Origin: Brachionus manjavacas
Taxonomy: Eukaryota > Rotifera > Eurotatoria > Ploima > Brachionidae
NCBI GenBank assembly: GCA_019054805.1
Contig: JAHQIY010000032.1
Span: forward strand, 372,001-436,000
Length of the DNA: 64,000 bases
Direction: 5' to 3'
Of the stretch, positions 433 through 11,299 are shown piece after piece. Position 1 is the first letter of the stretch. Each line of letters opens with the position of its first letter. The position numbers were made by a program, and so were the translations under genes. A model generated the notes under the pieces. It was not told where the DNA came from. It was given only the letters and a program-made list of their open reading frames with translations, and did no database searches.

Positions 433-3400
433 CTAGTTTTCATTATCTTCGGAGTTTTCATCTGGATTTTCACTTTCTTGATCCTCTTCAATCTCACTCT
501 CTATGTCACTGCCTTTATTTTTTCCTTTCTTTTTTTTAAGAGGTTTTTTTCCCTTTTTTCTGCGACCATCATCGCCAATTTTTAGTTTACTCTCCACAAA
601 ATTCACCATAAAGCCTCCATCAAATGAATTTACATAAAGCAGTTGCTGTACTCTAACCATCAGCGCTTCGATTACTCTATTATAAATAGGAGCTTGTTTG
701 GCAATTGCCGCTTGATCCTTGGTGACCAAAATCTCTTGTATAAAGTGAACACACTTTTGTATTTTTTGCAGCAGAACCACTATCTCTTGTTTCGAGCCAT
801 CAAAAGCTTTGTCCAAACAAGGCATTGCATACTTTGTGAAATTGGTGACAAAAATTTTTGAGTTTTTGATCACAGTTAGCATGTTTATGTCCTTGAATGC
901 AACGCTTTTTTTTAGCAATACCAACTCACAGTGCATGTGAGTAAGACTGCGAATTTTGGAAAACACTTCCAATGTGTCGCCGGTACAAAATTTCAGCTCA
1001 TTTACAGTAAATTCAAGACAAGTTTTGTAATAGGGCAAAAAGTGGCTTTTTAGTGTTGAATATTTGTCGCAGTTTTGCCTGTCGAGCATAAAGTCATCAT
1101 TGCAAATAACTTTAACCAAATCTTCCACAACACCCAAGCTATTCTCACTATTAGCAATTAAATAATTCAAGCAGCAAACTACTCCATCGTTGCTCATCTG
1201 TCGATTTGAGAATACCAAGTTTAACTTCGGACTATAATCATTAGTCAAAAATTCCAATGAACAAGTACACAGTATTTTTTTCATTTTTGCCAAGAGGTTT
1301 TCATCAGTTTTTTTGGATAAAATTTTGATTATCAAATCCAAGAGTTGAATCAAAGTGTGGCCCGAATTGAGGTCCAACAAGACATCCTTAAACTTGGCCA
1401 AATAATTGAAACACACCAAATCGGGCAGCTTGTCAATTTGACTTGCCAATTTCGAACTTGACTGTATCTTGACTGATCTGATAATAACTTTAAACAAATC
1501 TTCCAATTTACTCTGATTATTCACACTGTTCAAATAGGAAAAAGTCTGCTGCAACATCTTTAATATTTGATTGAGAATTTTTAGCAAAAATAAATTATTT
1601 TCACTTGTTGAAATCTCCGAGGGGTCTTTGATGCCATCATGCTTGTCCTGAATGGTTCGTATGTGATTTTGAATAGTGTCCAAATGATTAATAAGAGCAG
1701 GCATGTTTTTATCTATCAGGCTGTTTATTACACCAGTGACATCGACTGGGTTAGACTGCAGGAACAATTGCAACTTGGTTGGCTTGGCTGTCAAACCTAG
1801 TGGATTCGTTTTGGCAGAATTTGATTTTAAGATGATGCTTAATTTTGAATTGAAATCGCTTAGCACATAAAGTAGATGCTCTGGTTTTAGACTTGACAAT
1901 GTTGGTTCTTTTTCGCTTGTGTCCGGTATTACATGCGCATTCAGGTTCAGGTTGAAATTCACAAAGTTGATTAAGCCTAAGTCGAATTCCCGAAAATAGA
2001 TTGATATTTTGTTCAGGTCGAATTCAGATGTGGACTCTTGATCATCATCAGAGTCATCAATAATGCTCTTTTCTTCTTCCAAGTCCGAGTTGTCCAACAA
2101 ATTTTCATTTTTGGATTTTTTAGCTCCTTTCTTTGCCTCTTTGAAGCCTTTTTTCTTGCCACTCTTTGGCTTGTTTTCTTTTACAAATTGCTGAATGAAT
2201 GGCAATTCATCAACTGATGAGTCAATGAGGCCAAAAACTACCATCGGTGGCCGATAGAACTTCATTAGAGAGAGAATGTTTCTTAGAACACATCTCAATT
2301 GGCAAATGTCATTCAAGCGATTGATCAATTTATCTCCCAGCTGAAATTGGTCATCGAAAATTTTTCCACTAAATGCATTTATTAGTTCAATAAACCAATT
2401 GATCAAATAAAATATACAATTGCAGACCAGCTTTTTTTCGTCATCATTAAAGCTTTTGAATTTGTTAAACCAATCGTTACCATAGCGCAGCAGGTCATCT
2501 TTGTTAATAGATAAGATGGGACAGCCTAAATAGTCGGCAAATTCCATATTGAGTTGATAGTGTGTATTTTAAGACATGAATTTTAATTTTTTTCATAAAT
2601 CCCAAATCTCATGTTTTTGATTTTTTTGTTGTAGTAATTTATGTCTTTTAAATGAATTGCATTGAATTTTTTTGAATTTTTGAGACAAAAAATTTAATTT
2701 TGTATTGAATATTTTAGGAAAAAAAAAATTGAATAGTCGAGAGTTATGACACGACTTCTAATTGAAAAAAAATAATAATTTAGATTCAACATATAAAAAT
2801 CATAATAAAAAAAAAGACTCTCGATTTTTCTGATGATTAAATAATTTTCATTTGTTTTGAGTAATCAAATGTAAATTGAATCGATTACTAAAAGTTTTTT
2901 AAAAAATTATAATTTTAAACTCAGATCATAAAGATTAACAAAATAGTCTATGAATTTTGGACAAATTTACCAGTTCTAGAATTAATAAATAAAACTTTTC
3001 TTTAAACCAGGTGATGAATGGATTATGGATATTTAAATTTGAACAAAAGAGCATTTAAAAAAAGAGTGTTGAGTAGAAAATTAAACTTTGGTTTAGCGTT
3101 GATAAATTAGAAAAAAAAAATTTTAAATTTTTTCTAACTACTATAAGGGTTTTGACAAAAAAACTTTTTTGAAGGTAAAATTTTTTGACTTATCGATTAC
3201 TTTTTTTAAAATAATTAAATTTTTTTTTTTAAATTTAATCTATTTTTATTTACAAAATAATTAGCTCTAATTAAAAATCCTTTAAATACAATTTTATCAA
3301 AAATTTTTTTTAATTTTTTTCTTGTTAGGTATTCTTTGTTTTTGCTGAACTCTGCATTATTTACAATCTGAAAATAAAAATTTTGGCCAGCTTCATCAAC

Positions 3401-6400
3401 TTGATATCAAGTAATGCAGTTTGTTTTTTCTTTAAATTTTCTTAAATAGAAATGCTTATATTTTTTTAAAGAAATTATTTTTTAATTGTAGAAAAAATAC
3501 TTTTAATCATCTAAAAAAAAATTTTATTTTTTCCTTGAAGCCGGTAGGGCCTTTTTTCGAATCTTTATTTCAAAACTTTTGGATGAATTAATAGATATAA
3601 ACTAATTTTTTTCTAAAGAAAAAATAATTTTTTTTATAAATCATCTATACTCCTAAAAAAAATACAAGCCGAAATATATTGGGCTGATTGTATGTGTTTC
3701 TTTTCTAATACAAAAATGTGCATAATGTTGAAAAAAATTGATATTTTAATTTTATTATTAAAGTTAGAGACTGAAGATAAGGCCACAAGTTGACTTGGGT
3801 GAACACATTTAACCCGACATATTAACCCTATAAGGTTTTATAATTTAAATTAAGAACCAGAATAATAGGTCTACGAAACCGATCGTTTTTCCCATTTGAA
3901 ATAGAAAAACTTAATTATCATTAAAAAATTTTTAATTTTACATTGTATTATAAATCAAGTGCGATCACTTTAGACTATTTATTTATAAAAAAGAATTTAT
4001 AAGATAAAAATTAATTTATGAAGAAACAAATCAGATTTATTAAGATTAAAATGAACATTTAGTAAATTTTCTTAATTTTATGGTTAAAATGGGTAAAAAA
4101 ATTTAAAAATGTAATCAAGTAGCTAAAAATTAAAATTAATTTTAAAAGCTCGCTTATTCTTTTCTAACCCTTTGGAATTCAACCATTTTTTTTAATTTGA
4201 TGCTATTAGATCAAATTAGAAAAAATTAGAAAAAATATTATGAAGTTTGAAATTTTAAAATTAACATTAGTTTCAAGAGTTCTCTGTGTCTCTTTCAGCT
4301 CAATATGCTTTCAGATTATTTCGTTCTAAAGCACACATGAGACGAAATGTAGACGGAATGGCAATAGAAGGAAGATTCAGCTGCTGAATGTGTGGATTTA
4401 GAATGCAGGTGTTCTTTTTTTTTAAATCGTTTAGAACTAAAGGCAACAAATTAAGAGCTCCATGGGTTCTTTGGTCAAGACCAAAATCGTATCCAAATCT
4501 AAACGCAGACAATTGAGTGCTGTACTTAGACAGTGTTTGCTTATAGCCAGGGTCTAATTTGAACAAATTTCTGGACATGTCTCGCAAGTTCTCCTTCATC
4601 AGAACCTCCAAGCTGTCGCCGATGGAATCTTTGAGTACGATGCCAGTCAGATCGTCTTCGAAAAGACCCAAAGATTCTGGACTGGATCGGCTAGATTCCA
4701 AGATCATGTCCCAAATATTTTTAATCTCTGCTGCTATGTTTGACAAAATATATGACGTATTCTGAATTGAGGTGGAATTGCCTGGTGCGTTATAAACACT
4801 TGACTGAGAACTCGAGCATGAAAAAAAACTTTCATTTTCTTCTTCTAGTTTTTCGGCCGGTTTGGCCTTGGTTCTACTAGCCATACTCTTTATAAGCATC
4901 AAAGCTCCTATCACTCCAATTTGCTTATGTTTGAGGCTATTTGAACTCAATTGCTTGTTGATAAGAATATTCAAATTATCCTGAATATTGCTGGGTCTGG
5001 TGAAAGACTGTGAGCTCGAAATTACCGAGATGGACTCGGGAGCCGAGGGCTTTGGGTGCGAATAAGCAATCGAGCAGATTATGGTGTAGACTTTGCGTAT
5101 TTCAGACAAGTTAAAGTATTCAATGTAGTCAAGCAGGGTTTTTATTTGCATCTGAAAAGGCACCAGAGCACTTTCTTTTTCTGCCGACGACAGATTGACC
5201 AGCACATCTAGCGAGTTCTCTCGGACAGGCTCATTGATTACGAAAAAAAGAGGATTTAAGCTAATTTTTTTGAATAAATTTCAAGTTCAACAAAAAAAAA
5301 TATTAAATATTTATTAGGTATTTTAATAAAAAAAACACAAACTGCTGATAAAAAACACTTAATCTAATCCTCATGAACATATTTTTGTTTGAAAATTTTG
5401 TCAGCCAAAATCTTCATATGGAGAAGCTGCTGACGAATGTGTTTGTCCAAGTGCAAGAACATGTCCTTGATGATTAGCTTTCCAATCGATGCCAATTCAC
5501 CAGGCGGATTTTGAATCAGCGACTTGAACATTTTTTCAATCGGATCGAGAACTTCTTGGGCAAAATTTGTGCAAAATTTAATAAAAATCCAACTAGACTT
5601 TTCAACATTTCTAATTGCTTCTTGTTTAATTGCTACTTTGAAAAGTTTATCAATCGATTTGGAATAGTGTGCAATCGAATAGCTCAAAGTGACTACAAGA
5701 AAGTCAAAGGGCAGAATCAAATTGTTCACAAATGCCAAAGTATTGTACTGAATGCAAGTCGAATAGAGCTCGACCAATTGACTAGAAACTTGGAAATTTT
5801 CCCTAAATATGTCGTAGACTACGTGTCTTATTGAATCATCTGTTAGTTCGTCTAATTTTAGTTTGCTCCGCAAATCATTGAACACATCTCTGTCATTCAG
5901 GACAATGGAAGCTTTTAGGATGAATTTCAAGCTGGATGGTAGATCTTTTTCACTCAAAAGCGGGTATTTTAGTAGCACGCTGCGAGTGATGCCAAGCAAA
6001 TTTTCTTTCTTGAAACTAAGGTTGCTCAGTGTGTCCAGAGTGGGACTAATGAGCTCGATTTCATCTAGAAGCAGTTCCAAGTCGTTTACCAAGCCATCGT
6101 GCTGGCTGTCACATAGAATGTCTGGAAAGCAGGCAATGATCTCTTTTTTGATTACAAAATTTGTGGTGTTGTTGATTAGCTCGATTAATTTTTGGCACAA
6201 CGCTTGGGGATCGTTGATACGCGGCTGGTACCTGAATTGAGCAACGATATAGCTTGGTATGTTGATTTGGAGACCGAGGATTTGAATGTCCGAACTGCTG
6301 TCGCTGGTCTCTAGATAATTTAGTATCTTTGAGATCAAATAGTCGAACAGGTCGGACTGCAGGTCGGGTATTTCGAGCAAAATTTTGAGTAGGCTGTCTT

Positions 6401-6668
6401 GATTCGAGCTATGAGTGTGCTGGTTGCTCACATTTTTACTTGGTAATAAAGATACTGCAAAGTTTGTTTCGTTGTCAAGATATGATTCAAGATTTTTCCA
6501 AATGGTTTCATAATTCTTCTCCCACTTGGGATTTTCAGATGATTTTTGAATGAATTGTATCAGGTTGGATTGAAATCTGCGAGGATCGATGCTAAAACTA
6601 TTGAAAGTCTCCTCTTCATTATTTAGATTGATGCCAAATTTTTCAAAAATTTCCACAATCTTAGACAT
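433..6668 (-). CDS. FANCD2: Fanconi anaemia group D2 protein, three coding blocks
   Basis: FANCD2 is the monoubiquitinated clamp subunit of the Fanconi pathway that acts with FANCI at DNA interstrand crosslinks. Three minus-strand blocks, about 6668-5370, 5250-4309 and 2544-433, together encode about 1450 residues; human FANCD2 has 1451. Block 2 contains LKHKQIGVIGAL, matching the human segment around ubiquitinated Lys561; the equivalent Lys codon is at 4924-4926 (about residue 542). Block 2 also has GALNLLPLVL and ends ALERNNLK, and block 3 opens with a segment ending GCPIL and then CIFYLINWFIELINAF, matching consecutive human segments. The C-terminus is basic, then strongly acidic (about 490-430). 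The start is the ATG at 6668. The two interruptions lack convincing GT-AG borders and carry inverted repeats at their edges (described separately). No frameshift is seen inside a block, so the gene looks functional. Confidence 0.9.
2545..4308 (-). other. Candidate non-canonical, TIR-bounded intron of FANCD2
   Basis: This 1764-bp AT-rich segment separates two blocks that are contiguous in the FANCD2 family. In the gene direction the border reads AAA|GCATATTGAG...CTCAATATG|GAA, and removal keeps frame (Lys-Glu). The ends form an imperfect inverted repeat, CATATTGAGCTGAAAG against CATATTGAGTTGATAG (14 of 16). The first block runs into an in-frame TGA inside the repeat, with no GT donor close by. 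There is no AG acceptor just upstream of the second block. It carries no long ORF. Alternatives are a recent insertion that inactivates the gene, or a distant GT-AG pair that removes conserved residues. Confidence 0.55.
5250..5372 (-). other. Candidate short inverted-repeat-bounded intron of FANCD2
   Basis: This interruption of about 120 bp lies between the first two FANCD2 blocks. In the gene direction, block 1 runs into an in-frame TAG shortly after GAGGATT. The edges match as an inverted repeat, GAGGATT(AGA)TTAAG against GAGGATTTAAG. Removing it between Glu (5370) and Leu (5250) keeps frame and gives a chain ...KYVHE|LFFVINEPVREN.... A canonical alternative, a GT at 5378-5379 with an AG ending near 5236, is also in phase but would delete about ten plausible residues, so this case is weaker than the 1.76-kb one. 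Confidence 0.4.
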
Positions 6669-6903
6669 ATTATTAAAAATAAATTTTTTTTCAAATTTTA
6701 TTTATCAAATTTAAATGCACTTTTCCAAATCTTTTCAAATACTTGACTTGACAAATATTTTTCAAATTTTAAAGCAAATTATCAATAAATAATTCTCATT
6801 TAATTTTTTCTATTTAAAATAAATGTATTTGATTATCAAATCAATTTTAAATCAATAAAATAAATGAATATAAATATTTTTTCTTATTCAAAACTCGATA
6901 TGA

Positions 6904-6976
6904 GACTCCGTGGCGCAATTGGTAGCGCGTCTGACTCCAGATCAGAAGGTTGCGTGTTCGAGTCACGTCGGGGTCA
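6904..6976 (+). tRNA. tRNA-Trp (anticodon CCA)
   Basis: A full cloverleaf. The acceptor stem GACTCCG pairs with CGGGGTC (one T-G pair). The anticodon arm CTGACTCCAGATCAG carries CCA, and the T arm GCGTGTTCGAGTCACGT contains box B. The D arm TGGCGCAATTGG is box A. There is no intron. It lies 235 bp upstream of FANCD2 on the opposite strand and is followed by a T run (6978-6985) that serves as a Pol III terminator. Confidence 0.97.
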
Positions 6977-7348
6977 AATTTTTTTTGATTACTTTTCACA
7001 ATTTTTTATCAATTTTTATTAACTACAGCCTGTTTCTAAAATTTTAATTTATTTAAATATTCGGCAAAGCTAAAATATTCATGAGGATACAAAAATTTAT
7101 TTTAAAATCAAATAAAAATTGAATTAATTTACAGACTTTGATATAAAAACAAGTCTGATCATTTAAAAAAAATCAAAATTTTTTATTCAAAATCATCATT
7201 AACAATCTAAATAATTTCAAAAAATTTTAATTCCATTTTTAAATGATCAATAAAATTTATTATATTTTTAATTTCTTTTAATTTTTATTATCTGTAAATT
7301 ATTATAATATAAATAGCACTAATTTACAAATTGTTAAGAATTACAAAA

Positions 7349-7808
7349 ATGTTCAAATACATCAGTTTGGTCATCCTTTTTATTAGTAATTACAATCTTT
7401 GAATTGCTTTCTTTAATCTTCAGCATTTTAAGGCTTTGAACTAAGACCTATATCTAGTCTTATGTGTAAATCGTGCCATACATGCCAAGGCGGAAATTTT
7501 GGCCTAATGGAGCCGAGACGAAATGTTTTTTGCAACAAGAATCAACACTATTGTATTGTAAATTGATTAATTAATCTTTTATTTAAAAAGATGAAAATTT
7601 TATTAAGGCTGACGTTGATGTTTTACCCAAAATTACCAAGACTGAATCAGAAAAAGTTTTGATTAAACTTGGCTGCTCTGACTTCTGTCCGAAAAATCAT
7701 TATTGTTGCACAAAGAACTACTGTAATAATATTAACCAACGTTACGTAAATAAAAAGATTCGAGAATCTATTAGAAAATTTTCGCATTCCAAAACTTTGG
7801 TTTTGTAG
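7349..7808 (+). CDS. Secreted Ly6/uPAR three-finger protein (copy 1)
   Basis: Three exons, 7349-7385, 7433-7557 and 7608-7808, with GT-AG introns of 47 and 50 bp (phases 1 and 0), encode about 120 residues. The first exon is a signal peptide (MFKYISLVILFIS). The mature chain has CKSCHTC near its start, then CNKNQHYCI, LGCSDFCP and the family signature CCTKNYCN, which are the cysteines of a three-finger Ly6/uPAR fold. No GPI-attachment tail is seen after the last cysteines, only a basic 25-residue extension, so secretion is likely. The intron positions match the other Ly6 genes here. The ligand is unknown. Confidence 0.8.
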
Positions 7809-8756: not shown

Positions 8757-8939
8757 TTATCTCTTTTTGATTAATATAATTTCGCATGCGGACACATTCA
8801 AAATAAAAAGTTTTAGCATCCATTGAGTGAGAAATATGTTGGGACAGGACTGAGTCATTCTATTCCATTGGTTGAAAGACTGGTGAAAGAATACAAAGAA
8901 GGTTTCGAATCAAGATATATTGAATACCCATCTCCATTG

Positions 8940-9190
8940 TGTAATTGCTACCTTACTATTTCCTCCTTTTTTCCTGAAACCTGAACTATGTAAACATTTG
9001 CCACATGTAACAATCTATGTCTTCTAAACTTTCTCTTTTTTTTTTCTTTTTTTTTAGCTTATTTACTTTATTTTGATTTTTTTATCTCATTTTATTAACT
9101 TTAATTTTATTTTTTATTTTGATTTTGATTTTTTAATTTATTCTGAAGGAGCCCTAGCTCGGTACAGAAAACAAATAAATAAATAAATTG
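8940..9190 (+). repeat. LINE/SINE 3' tail family, copy 1
   Basis: It runs from a segment around CCTGAAACCTGAACTATG, through T-rich stretches, to TCTGAAGGAGCCCTAGCTC, GGTACAGAAAAC and an (AAATAAAT)n tail. The same order of motifs recurs three times at 58.44-58.96 kb. The (AAAT)n-type end is typical of a retrotransposon 3' end. No intact reverse transcriptase is attached. Confidence 0.7.
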
Positions 9191-9896: not shown

Positions 9897-10443
9897 CTAA
9901 TTGTCATATTCTTCAACGCTTTCTTCGAACGATCTTCCATATTTTCTTCCTTTTCCACCTTTTCCTTTTCTACCTTTTCTTCCTTTTCCACGTTTTTTTT
10001 TTGGTAAATTGCAGAGATTTTTGGTGCAACACGATGCCTTTAATCCTGTATTGGCATAGGATTGTGCATTACATTCGGTTGTACAACCCAGAGCCACTAT
10101 TTTCATCTGTTCTTTTCCATAACCATTAGTTAATTTTTGCTCGGCTCTCTTAAATGAAATTAAATGAACTTAAATGGATAAAACAATACAATTATTACAA
10201 TACAAAATTTTTGACTTGCAGAGCATTCTCTTTTAACAGCTTTTTTAAATGTTTTAGGTTTATTTAAATCAATTCCAGTACAGTCTTCGCAATAGTAGCA
10301 TTTTAAGCTATTAACGTAGTCAGCTATTGCTAAAAATTCAATCATTTAAATTAAATAGATAATTTTCACAAATATCTATTAAATTGTATACCTAAACCCA
10401 GCATCAAACAAAAAAATATATTCTTGATATTAATTGAACGCAT
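9897..10443 (-). CDS. Secreted Ly6/uPAR three-finger protein (copy 2) with basic tail
   Basis: Three exons, 10443-10392, 10329-10199 and 10148-9897, with GT-AG introns. The signal peptide is in exon 1 (MRSINIKNIFFCLMLGLA). Exon 2 has LKCYYCEDCTGID and ends QKFCI; exon 3 has MKIVALGCTTEC and CCTKNLCN. Exons 1 and 2 are exactly as long (52 and 131 nt) as those of the divergent neighbour at 10840, and much of exon 3 is nearly identical to it. This copy differs after LPKK: it has a low-complexity Gly-Lys-Arg tail and then an acidic end (SVEEYDN). A secreted three-finger protein with a basic tail could bind matrix or acidic polymers; that is inference. Confidence 0.82.
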
Positions 10444-10839
10444 TTTTGGATTGAAAAAAAAGCATTATCAAATTTTTTATACTTGGAACTTAATGTATTA
10501 TGTTTCATAAAATAAATGGTCTGTAGAGTCAGGGTAAATAAAGAACAACTCAAGTATTTCAATAAATTTCATAAAAAATATTATTGAGTATCATTTTTAA
10601 AAGCGAAATGCAGTTTTTACTTAAAATAAAAAACTTAAAGTACAAACATGGGACTGATCGTTGACTGAAGGTCGATGGTGCATGGTGCATTACTGATGGG
10701 ATATATTAATGGTACATTAATCACTGAATAAGTAATAAAATATTTTTTTTTATTTTAAAATTTTTTTTTGGAAAATTAATTTGAAATTTTTACTATAAAA
10801 ATACATTTTTGAAGAAATTTTTATTTTTCCAATTACAAA

Positions 10840-11299
10840 ATGTTTAATAGCAATTTAAAAAACCTTTTTATTCTTTTAGTCCTAATTTTGGGTAATTTTA
10901 ATTGCTGAATTATAAACAGTTTAAAATAAGTTAACTTTTAGCGATTGCCAGTCATGTTTATAGTTTAAAATGTTTCTATTGCGAAGACTGTGCTGGAATT
11001 GAGTTGAGAAATTCTAAAAGCTTTGGCAAAGCAAGCAAGAAGGAATGCTCGCCTGGTCAGAACTATTGCATCGTAAATAATTTTAATTTAATTTTGTTTA
11101 ATTTAATTTTTATATTCAGAGAGCTGAGCAAAAAATTCCTAATGGCAATGGAAAAGAACAGATGAAAATAGTGGCTCTGGGTTGTACAACGGAATGTAAT
11201 GCACAATCATATGCCAATACAGGATTAAAGGCATCTTGTTGCACCAAAAATCTCTGCAATTTACCAAAAAAATTAAAAAAAATCAAAGGTAGAAAATGA
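10840..11299 (+). CDS. Secreted Ly6/uPAR three-finger protein (copy 3)
   Basis: Exons 10840-10891, 10942-11072 and 11120-11299, with GT-AG introns, encode 120 residues. It has a signal peptide (NLKNLFILLVLILAIAS) and then LKCFYCEDCAGIE, QNYCI, VALGCTTEC and CCTKNLCN, ending in a short basic tail without a GPI signal. It is the divergent partner of the 10443 gene. Exon 3 has only about three base differences over roughly 100 nt, while exon 2 differs clearly, so the pair looks like an inverted duplication with recent conversion of exon 3. Confidence 0.85.

Follow-up and report, generated by a model that had tools for sequence, protein, structure and literature searches.

A FANCD2 gene of the rotifer Brachionus manjavacas is interrupted by a segment with inverted-repeat ends and without GT-AG borders, a possible non-canonical intron

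The window analyzed here is a stretch of 64,000 nucleotides from the rotifer Brachionus manjavacas (assembly GCA_019054805.1, contig JAHQIY010000032.1, here called C32, positions 372001-436000). Genome searches covered the whole assembly, 114.17 Mb in 61 contigs. On the minus strand of the window lies a gene for FANCD2, a core Fanconi anaemia protein. Two interruptions divide it into three coding blocks, and the second of them, a segment of 1764 nt whose ends form an inverted repeat, is the subject of this study. In window coordinates, with a slash marking exon borders, the parts of the gene are as follows.

6668 to 433, minus strand: whole FANCD2 coding span, three coding blocks, each matching Pfam FancD2 in order
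5379..6668, minus strand: exon 1, Pfam FancD2, 77% identity to residues 1-418 of the related protein P0005; the start codon is at 6668 and the exon end varies with the reading of intron 1
5230..5378, minus strand: intron 1 read as GT-AG, 149 nt, weak donor TAT/GTTCAT, two additional amino acids
5415-5261, minus strand: intron 1 in its exact-length alternative, GA-AG, 155 nt
4309..5229, minus strand: exon 2, last residues ...ALERNNLK, Pfam FancD2, 82% identity to P0005
2545..4308, minus strand: interrupting segment, 1764 nt under all three possible joins, 20.7% GC, without GT-AG borders
4292..4307, minus strand: 5' arm of the terminal inverted repeat, CATATTGAGCTGAAAG
2545..2560, minus strand: 3' arm of the terminal inverted repeat (reverse complement CATATTGAGTTGATAG)
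4300..4302, minus strand: in-frame TGA, third codon past the break, which bears on a possible gene fission
2545..2547, minus strand: in-frame ATG immediately 5' of EFADYLG, context AATATGG, which also bears on fission
433..2544, minus strand: exon 3, first residues EFADYLGCPIL, Pfam FancD2, stop codon at 433-435

An earlier sequence-only reading of this DNA had proposed that the blocks on either side of the segment adjoin in the FANCD2 family. The order of the Pfam FancD2 matches and the continuous block found in relatives bear this out. Our searches found 68 protein ids related to FANCD2, and we aligned the 11 best of 63 from one search. The region ALERNNLK/EFADYLGCPIL is unbroken in all 11, and the block ALER..LKEF..YLG.PIL differs in length only in P0011, which carries one additional residue. 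Because the block length is constant in the other 10 relatives, the point of excision is fixed, save for an ambiguity of 2 nt. Excision at this point keeps the frame, as had been claimed, and the joined frame encodes 1440 amino acids without an internal stop. The claim that this equals the length of human FANCD2 is only approximately right: chain 6vaa_B, which we take to be the human protein, has 1451 residues. With the solved FANCD2 chain 6tnf the joined protein aligns in a single stretch that crosses the break. Exon 3 is 94% identical, over 88% of its open reading frame (ORF), to a FANCD2 fragment of B. plicatilis. This lone fragment, P0001, begins downstream of the junction, and three protein searches with at most 8000 candidates scored in each found no protein named for, or near-identical to, B. 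manjavacas or B. plicatilis that crosses it. A six-frame search of the assembly found FANCD2 once, in three pieces that each lack stops, and found no segment-free or duplicate copy. P0005 is a protein of 1437 residues from a 54-kb contig; its gene presumably lacks both interruptions.

We enumerated the in-frame joins across the break together with their border dinucleotides and product lengths. Thirty-three joins yield exactly the expected length. None of these is GT-AG, as the sequence-only reading had held, none is GC-AG, and the single AT-AC join changes the peptide. The exact peptide is restored by three joins only, AG-AT, GC-TG and CA-GG, each offset by 1 nt, and the protein sequence cannot separate them. 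The predicted joined sequence is CTGAAGGAATTT or CTGAAAGAATTT, by which AG-AT would be distinct from the other two. Among the 1205 joins that deviate by up to 20 amino acids from the expected length there are two GT-AG joins (deleting 15 or 18 residues) and 11 AT-AC joins. Conventional donors deeper inside the segment are excluded by the TGA at the third codon past the break, and conventional acceptors because no AG occurs from the last in-frame stop up to the break. The segment thus has no canonical U2 GT-AG borders that are compatible with the protein. Neither does it combine a donor resembling the U12 consensus ATATCCTT with an AC end and the right protein. Ab initio gene models were not used because their output was degenerate (antisense coding, chained genes); the last round of one picked the GT-AG join that deletes 15 residues, and a second placed the donor 2 nt upstream and added an exon of 5 nt. 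No group I or group II catalytic core detectable with Rfam was found in the window, where only a tRNA-Trp reaches the gathering score. This tRNA-Trp (CCA) gene, at 6904-6976, lies upstream of FANCD2 in divergent orientation, about 235 bp from its start.

The terminal inverted repeat, CATATTGAGCTGAAAG and CATATTGAGTTGATAG, matches at 14 of 16 positions and is flush with the break, exactly as first described. As good a match is reached by 41 of 2,000,000 random pairs, drawn at distances of 60-3000 nt in 264 kb of this contig. The 16-nt ends of eight control introns match at 4 to 8 of 16 positions, compared to the 14 of the segment. The ends can form 9 perfect base pairs, followed by 3 + 2 more, and fold at -20.2 kcal/mol in a typed construct with an artificial A linker (z = -2.46; 3 of 200 shuffles as good). 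We also scanned the 264 kb for pairs of ORFs (at least 60 amino acids, more than 30% GC) with inverted arms no more than 60 nt from the ORF ends and at most 2 mismatches; low-complexity arms were filtered out, and reversed and complement patterns served as controls. The inverted matches consisted of the FANCD2 segment and four rows of one long hairpin at 9996-11272. An inverted repeat of this quality somewhere near the ends of ORFs is no great surprise. One that is flush with an independently fixed break is astonishing.

How do other introns of this genome look? Our controls are six introns of a GlyRS gene and two of an ERGIC-53-like lectin gene. All eight are GT-AG introns of 48-308 nt with donors GTA(A/T)NN, and the earlier statement that ordinary introns coexist in neighbouring genes is therefore correct. 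Seven of the eight are anchored by alignment or Pfam: the six of GlyRS, whose joined protein aligns with a solved GlyRS over residues 3-679 of 680 (with small indels near two joins), and lectin intron 1, which lies between two adjoining Pfam matches. Lectin intron 2, outside the Pfam match, is anchored only by the presumed course of the protein. More than one GT-AG join is possible in GlyRS intron 1 (4) and lectin intron 2 (2). A gap in SOD2 was left uncounted: GT-AG joins exist, but one side has no conserved anchor. Scoring of part of the candidates in the genome gave no fewer than four U1 genes and at least one U12 gene. We found no literature on non-canonical or nonconventional introns in Brachionus, in a search that left subscription journals mostly outside. 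A B. plicatilis expressed sequence tag (EST) for the ribosomal protein L11 carries a 351-base insertion with a GT start and no AG end, for which its authors suggested mis-splicing (PMC1925144). It is possibly worth revisiting in the light of the FANCD2 case.

Whether the gene is functional can be judged from private changes, which we counted among five Brachionus-like proteins; this measure covers the whole branch and not its most recent past. B. manjavacas has 16 private changes at 416 sites in exon 1, 9 at 306 in exon 2 and 19 at 698 in exon 3. The corresponding counts are 22, 11 and 27 for P0006 and 45, 26 and 68 for P0008, the most distant protein. P0005 (7, 2, 11) and P0007 (9, 6, 10) have small counts because they are, by eye, closest to each other. 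Relaxed constraint is not seen on either side of the break, the sites next to intron 1 excepted. A match to the FANCI_S2 family without stops lies on contig C4, and we take it for FANCI on the strength of the family's name. A partial match to FANCL_C, covering 44 of 69 positions, is above the cut-off but has one TGA inside. The low and even protein change on both sides of the break, together with the FANCI-family gene, makes decay unlikely.

The sequence-only reading had also stated that the gene has no other lesion, which is too strong. In intron 1, TAT/GTTCAT is the sole GT donor that yields a product no more than 2 residues off the expected length. It scores -0.9 compared to 6.8-8.8 in the eight control donors, a contrast that is inflated because the matrix was built from these same eight. 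Its AG joins give a protein that is 2 residues too long or 2 too short, and the better one adds 2 residues relative to all 10 aligned relatives that cover the site. Among joins of exact length, GA-AG and TG-TC tie as the best by similarity (155 nt). We considered intron 1 as a second intron with inverted-repeat ends and rejected this, as its best joins have no flush inverted repeat.

Was the segment derived from a transposon, as first suggested? All of its stop-to-stop ORFs are 67 amino acids or shorter. A search of the assembly, skipping simple repeats and very common words, returned 26 matches: the segment itself, a longest other match of 226 bp at 79%, and the rest of 38-113 bp. No close second copy was found in this search, which makes a young transposon copy unlikely. 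An internal repeat at 856-1076 of the segment is 79% identical to C32:349840; it was considered as the 3' end of a long interspersed nuclear element (LINE) but could not be assigned. The proposed genome search for other copies of the 16-bp end sequence found an exact match at its own site and nowhere else. Allowing up to 2 mismatches yields 94 genomic sites, compared to 48 for the reversed pattern; the excess includes tandem copies, for example on contigs C1 and C9. In the seven loci that we inspected (1.5 kb on each side) the end sequence has no correctly oriented partner, and any target-site duplication at the break amounts to a single G at most. What defines a miniature inverted-repeat transposable element (MITE) or an introner, namely a repeated family with the same ends and a target-site duplication, is not seen here. 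Hence, the proposed derivation from a transposon is not shown. The segment could be old, or have a source that we did not recognize, and within the searches made it belongs to no visible transposon family.

Two other repeats lie nearby. At window positions of about 8816-8987 there is a truncated reverse transcriptase piece, LINE-like by eye. Its C-terminal part is, by translation, nearly the same as a copy at about C32:348.5-349.4 kb (L036, about 6500-7500). The hairpin at 9996-11272 is a long inverted repeat with 158-nt arms that are 94% complementary (9996-10153 and 11115-11272) and a weaker pair (71%) nested inside; it could be a long hairpin or a foldback element.

What, then, is the segment? 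We give about an even chance to the reading that FANCD2 is functional here and that 4308-2545 is one of its introns, non-canonical and specific to the lineage, the ends of which would pair in RNA. Its borders, the pairing potential of its ends, the missing conventional signals, the single copy of the gene in the assembly and the protein constraint on both sides are direct observations. They suggest that the segment is removed from the RNA and that a hairpin guides this removal. In the pre-mRNA the paired ends would set ALERNNLK beside EFADYLG, and excision would then take place at AG-AT, GC-TG or CA-GG. By analogy, the segment might be removed by the spliceosome, as reported for Fritillaria, or by another route, as suspected for euglenids. 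From the sequence-only reading we retain an interruption with inverted-repeat ends and without GT-AG borders, in a gene that appears to function; an intron is the best reading of it, not a proven one. One could go further and argue that Brachionus can remove hairpin-ended introns without GT-AG borders beside ordinary splicing, a view to which we give somewhat less than even weight. FANCD2 would be one clear case, and perhaps intron 1 another (e.g., as GA-AG, without flush inverted ends), of a sporadic system in a phylum far from the appendicularians.

Several observations speak against an intron. Ordinary GT-AG introns predominate, being all eight of those counted. The segment, at 1.76 kb, is far longer than the mean introns of the annotated B. 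plicatilis-complex genomes, which measure 118-199 bp (PMC6555955). It also carries an ATG at the break, as fission requires. In our scan the reversed control produced 3 rows, from 2 loci, and the complement control stayed empty. Because such inverted repeats near ORF ends arise by chance, the repeat alone is no proof. A second case was not found among the filtered ORF pairs of the 264 kb. Finally, FANCD2 has a further oddity in intron 1, with its poor donor and length offset, and 5 of the 10 sites adjoining this intron are private changes. Such an oddity may point to decay or to another non-canonical intron.

Fission of the gene is the main rival, since the segment supplies an in-frame TGA just past the break and an ATG exactly at it. 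The segment would then be intergenic, the first gene ending in ...NNLKAY-stop and the second starting with MEFADYLG..., and the halves would be separate proteins. The TGA at the third codon and the ATG directly before EFADYLG make this possible, and the context AATATGG is good by the start-codon consensus. Fission would, however, require a new promoter and a new terminator inside the insert, the first half would still require splicing of intron 1, and the flush inverted repeat would be explicable only as a relic of an insertion. To our knowledge no splits of FANCD2 have been described. Both halves are constrained, as fission predicts, and 1.76 kb fits intergenic rather than intron sizes: spacers in the B. 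plicatilis complex are listed with medians of 925-1052 and means of 1832-2059 bp, and B. calyciflorus with 2746 and 5051 (PMC6555955). Against this, B. plicatilis ESTs are described as providing no evidence of spliced-leader trans-splicing (PMC1925144), which might otherwise aid fission. On balance, we consider fission unlikely. We think it still less likely that the segment sits in a non-functional or disposable allele, whether it entered the sequenced clone recently, as a transposon or as filler, or whether the gene is a young pseudogene. Inverted-repeat ends are typical of DNA transposons, and the poor signals of intron 1 would make two odd interruptions in one gene. Yet a recent copy should have close relatives, and the best non-self match is the one of 226 bp at 79%; the assembly search found no segment-free or duplicate FANCD2; the 1440 joined codons contain no stop and the branch rate is not relaxed; and a target-site duplication of at least 2 bp is lacking.

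Splicing of the rare AT-AC type, with borders shifted inward by a few nucleotides, has a slight chance; it would leave 4-7 extra residues (e.g., CAT/ATTGAG...CTATCAAC/TCA, giving LKAFNMEF). Eleven such joins lie within 20 amino acids of the expected length and a U12 small nuclear RNA (snRNA) gene is present, but the dinucleotides AT and AC are frequent in sequence of this kind, all 11 donors deviate from ATATCCTT, and no insertion of this sort occurs in the 11 aligned relatives, one of them having a single extra residue. Slighter still is the chance of a conventional GT-AG intron with displaced borders (T/GTGCTT ... TATTTAG/GC) and a loss of 15 residues. This join keeps the frame, and one of the ab initio models settled on it in its last round; those models were poor overall, and the second chose another donor. 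The 15 lost codons encode a stretch conserved in the aligned relatives, ALERNNLKEFADYLG would be removed, and the donor scores 1.0 compared to 6.8-8.8 in the eight controls on which the matrix was trained. Programmed elimination at the DNA level in part of the animal's cells, as for an internal eliminated sequence (IES), would account for the precise inverted-repeat ends, the one copy and the apparently kept function. We regard it as very improbable: the assembly has the segment in place and no version without it, and we know of no programmed DNA elimination of the IES type in rotifers.

Suppose that transcripts do join the exons at the break. In that case, animals beyond the appendicularians can process hairpin-ended introns without GT-AG borders, and a culturable laboratory animal would be at hand for asking what removes them. 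CRISPR editing has been reported in B. manjavacas (PMC10395877). If fission is true instead, the split of a core Fanconi anaemia protein would be interesting in itself. Under either reading, an annotation that forces GT-AG borders would misread FANCD2 here.

Three known systems invite comparison. The introner elements of Amoebophrya are non-canonical introns with inverted repeats of 8-20 nt that are able to join exon borders (PMC7789003), and the FANCD2 segment is likewise a non-canonical interruption with inverted-repeat ends. Theirs have direct repeats of 3-5 nt over the borders and are repeated by definition, whereas the FANCD2 segment has at most one shared G and no family was found for it. 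Nonconventional introns of euglenids and diplonemids have non-GT/AG borders that can be ambiguous, ends that pair, and GT-AG introns alongside (PMC11170887, PMC12621601). The FANCD2 segment resembles them in its terminal pairing (14/16, z = -2.46) and its non-GT-AG borders, but they belong to protists, are numerous and are supported by mRNA, whereas removal is a prediction in our case. The E. gracilis consensus CCAGG at +3 to +7 (PMC11170887) is absent from the segment. Fritillaria borealis and other appendicularian tunicates are, like our rotifer, animals, and have introns without GT-AG borders, as the FANCD2 segment would be; for Fritillaria, divergent U2AF paralogs and changed snRNA methylation are described (PMC13326754). 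Unlike those introns, the FANCD2 segment is an isolated case of 1.76 kb without a repeated family, in a genome where 8 of 8 controls are GT-AG. Nevertheless, the AG-AT reading, one of three equivalent joins here, fits the AG-A(N) borders reported for a majority of F. borealis non-canonical introns (PMC7789003).

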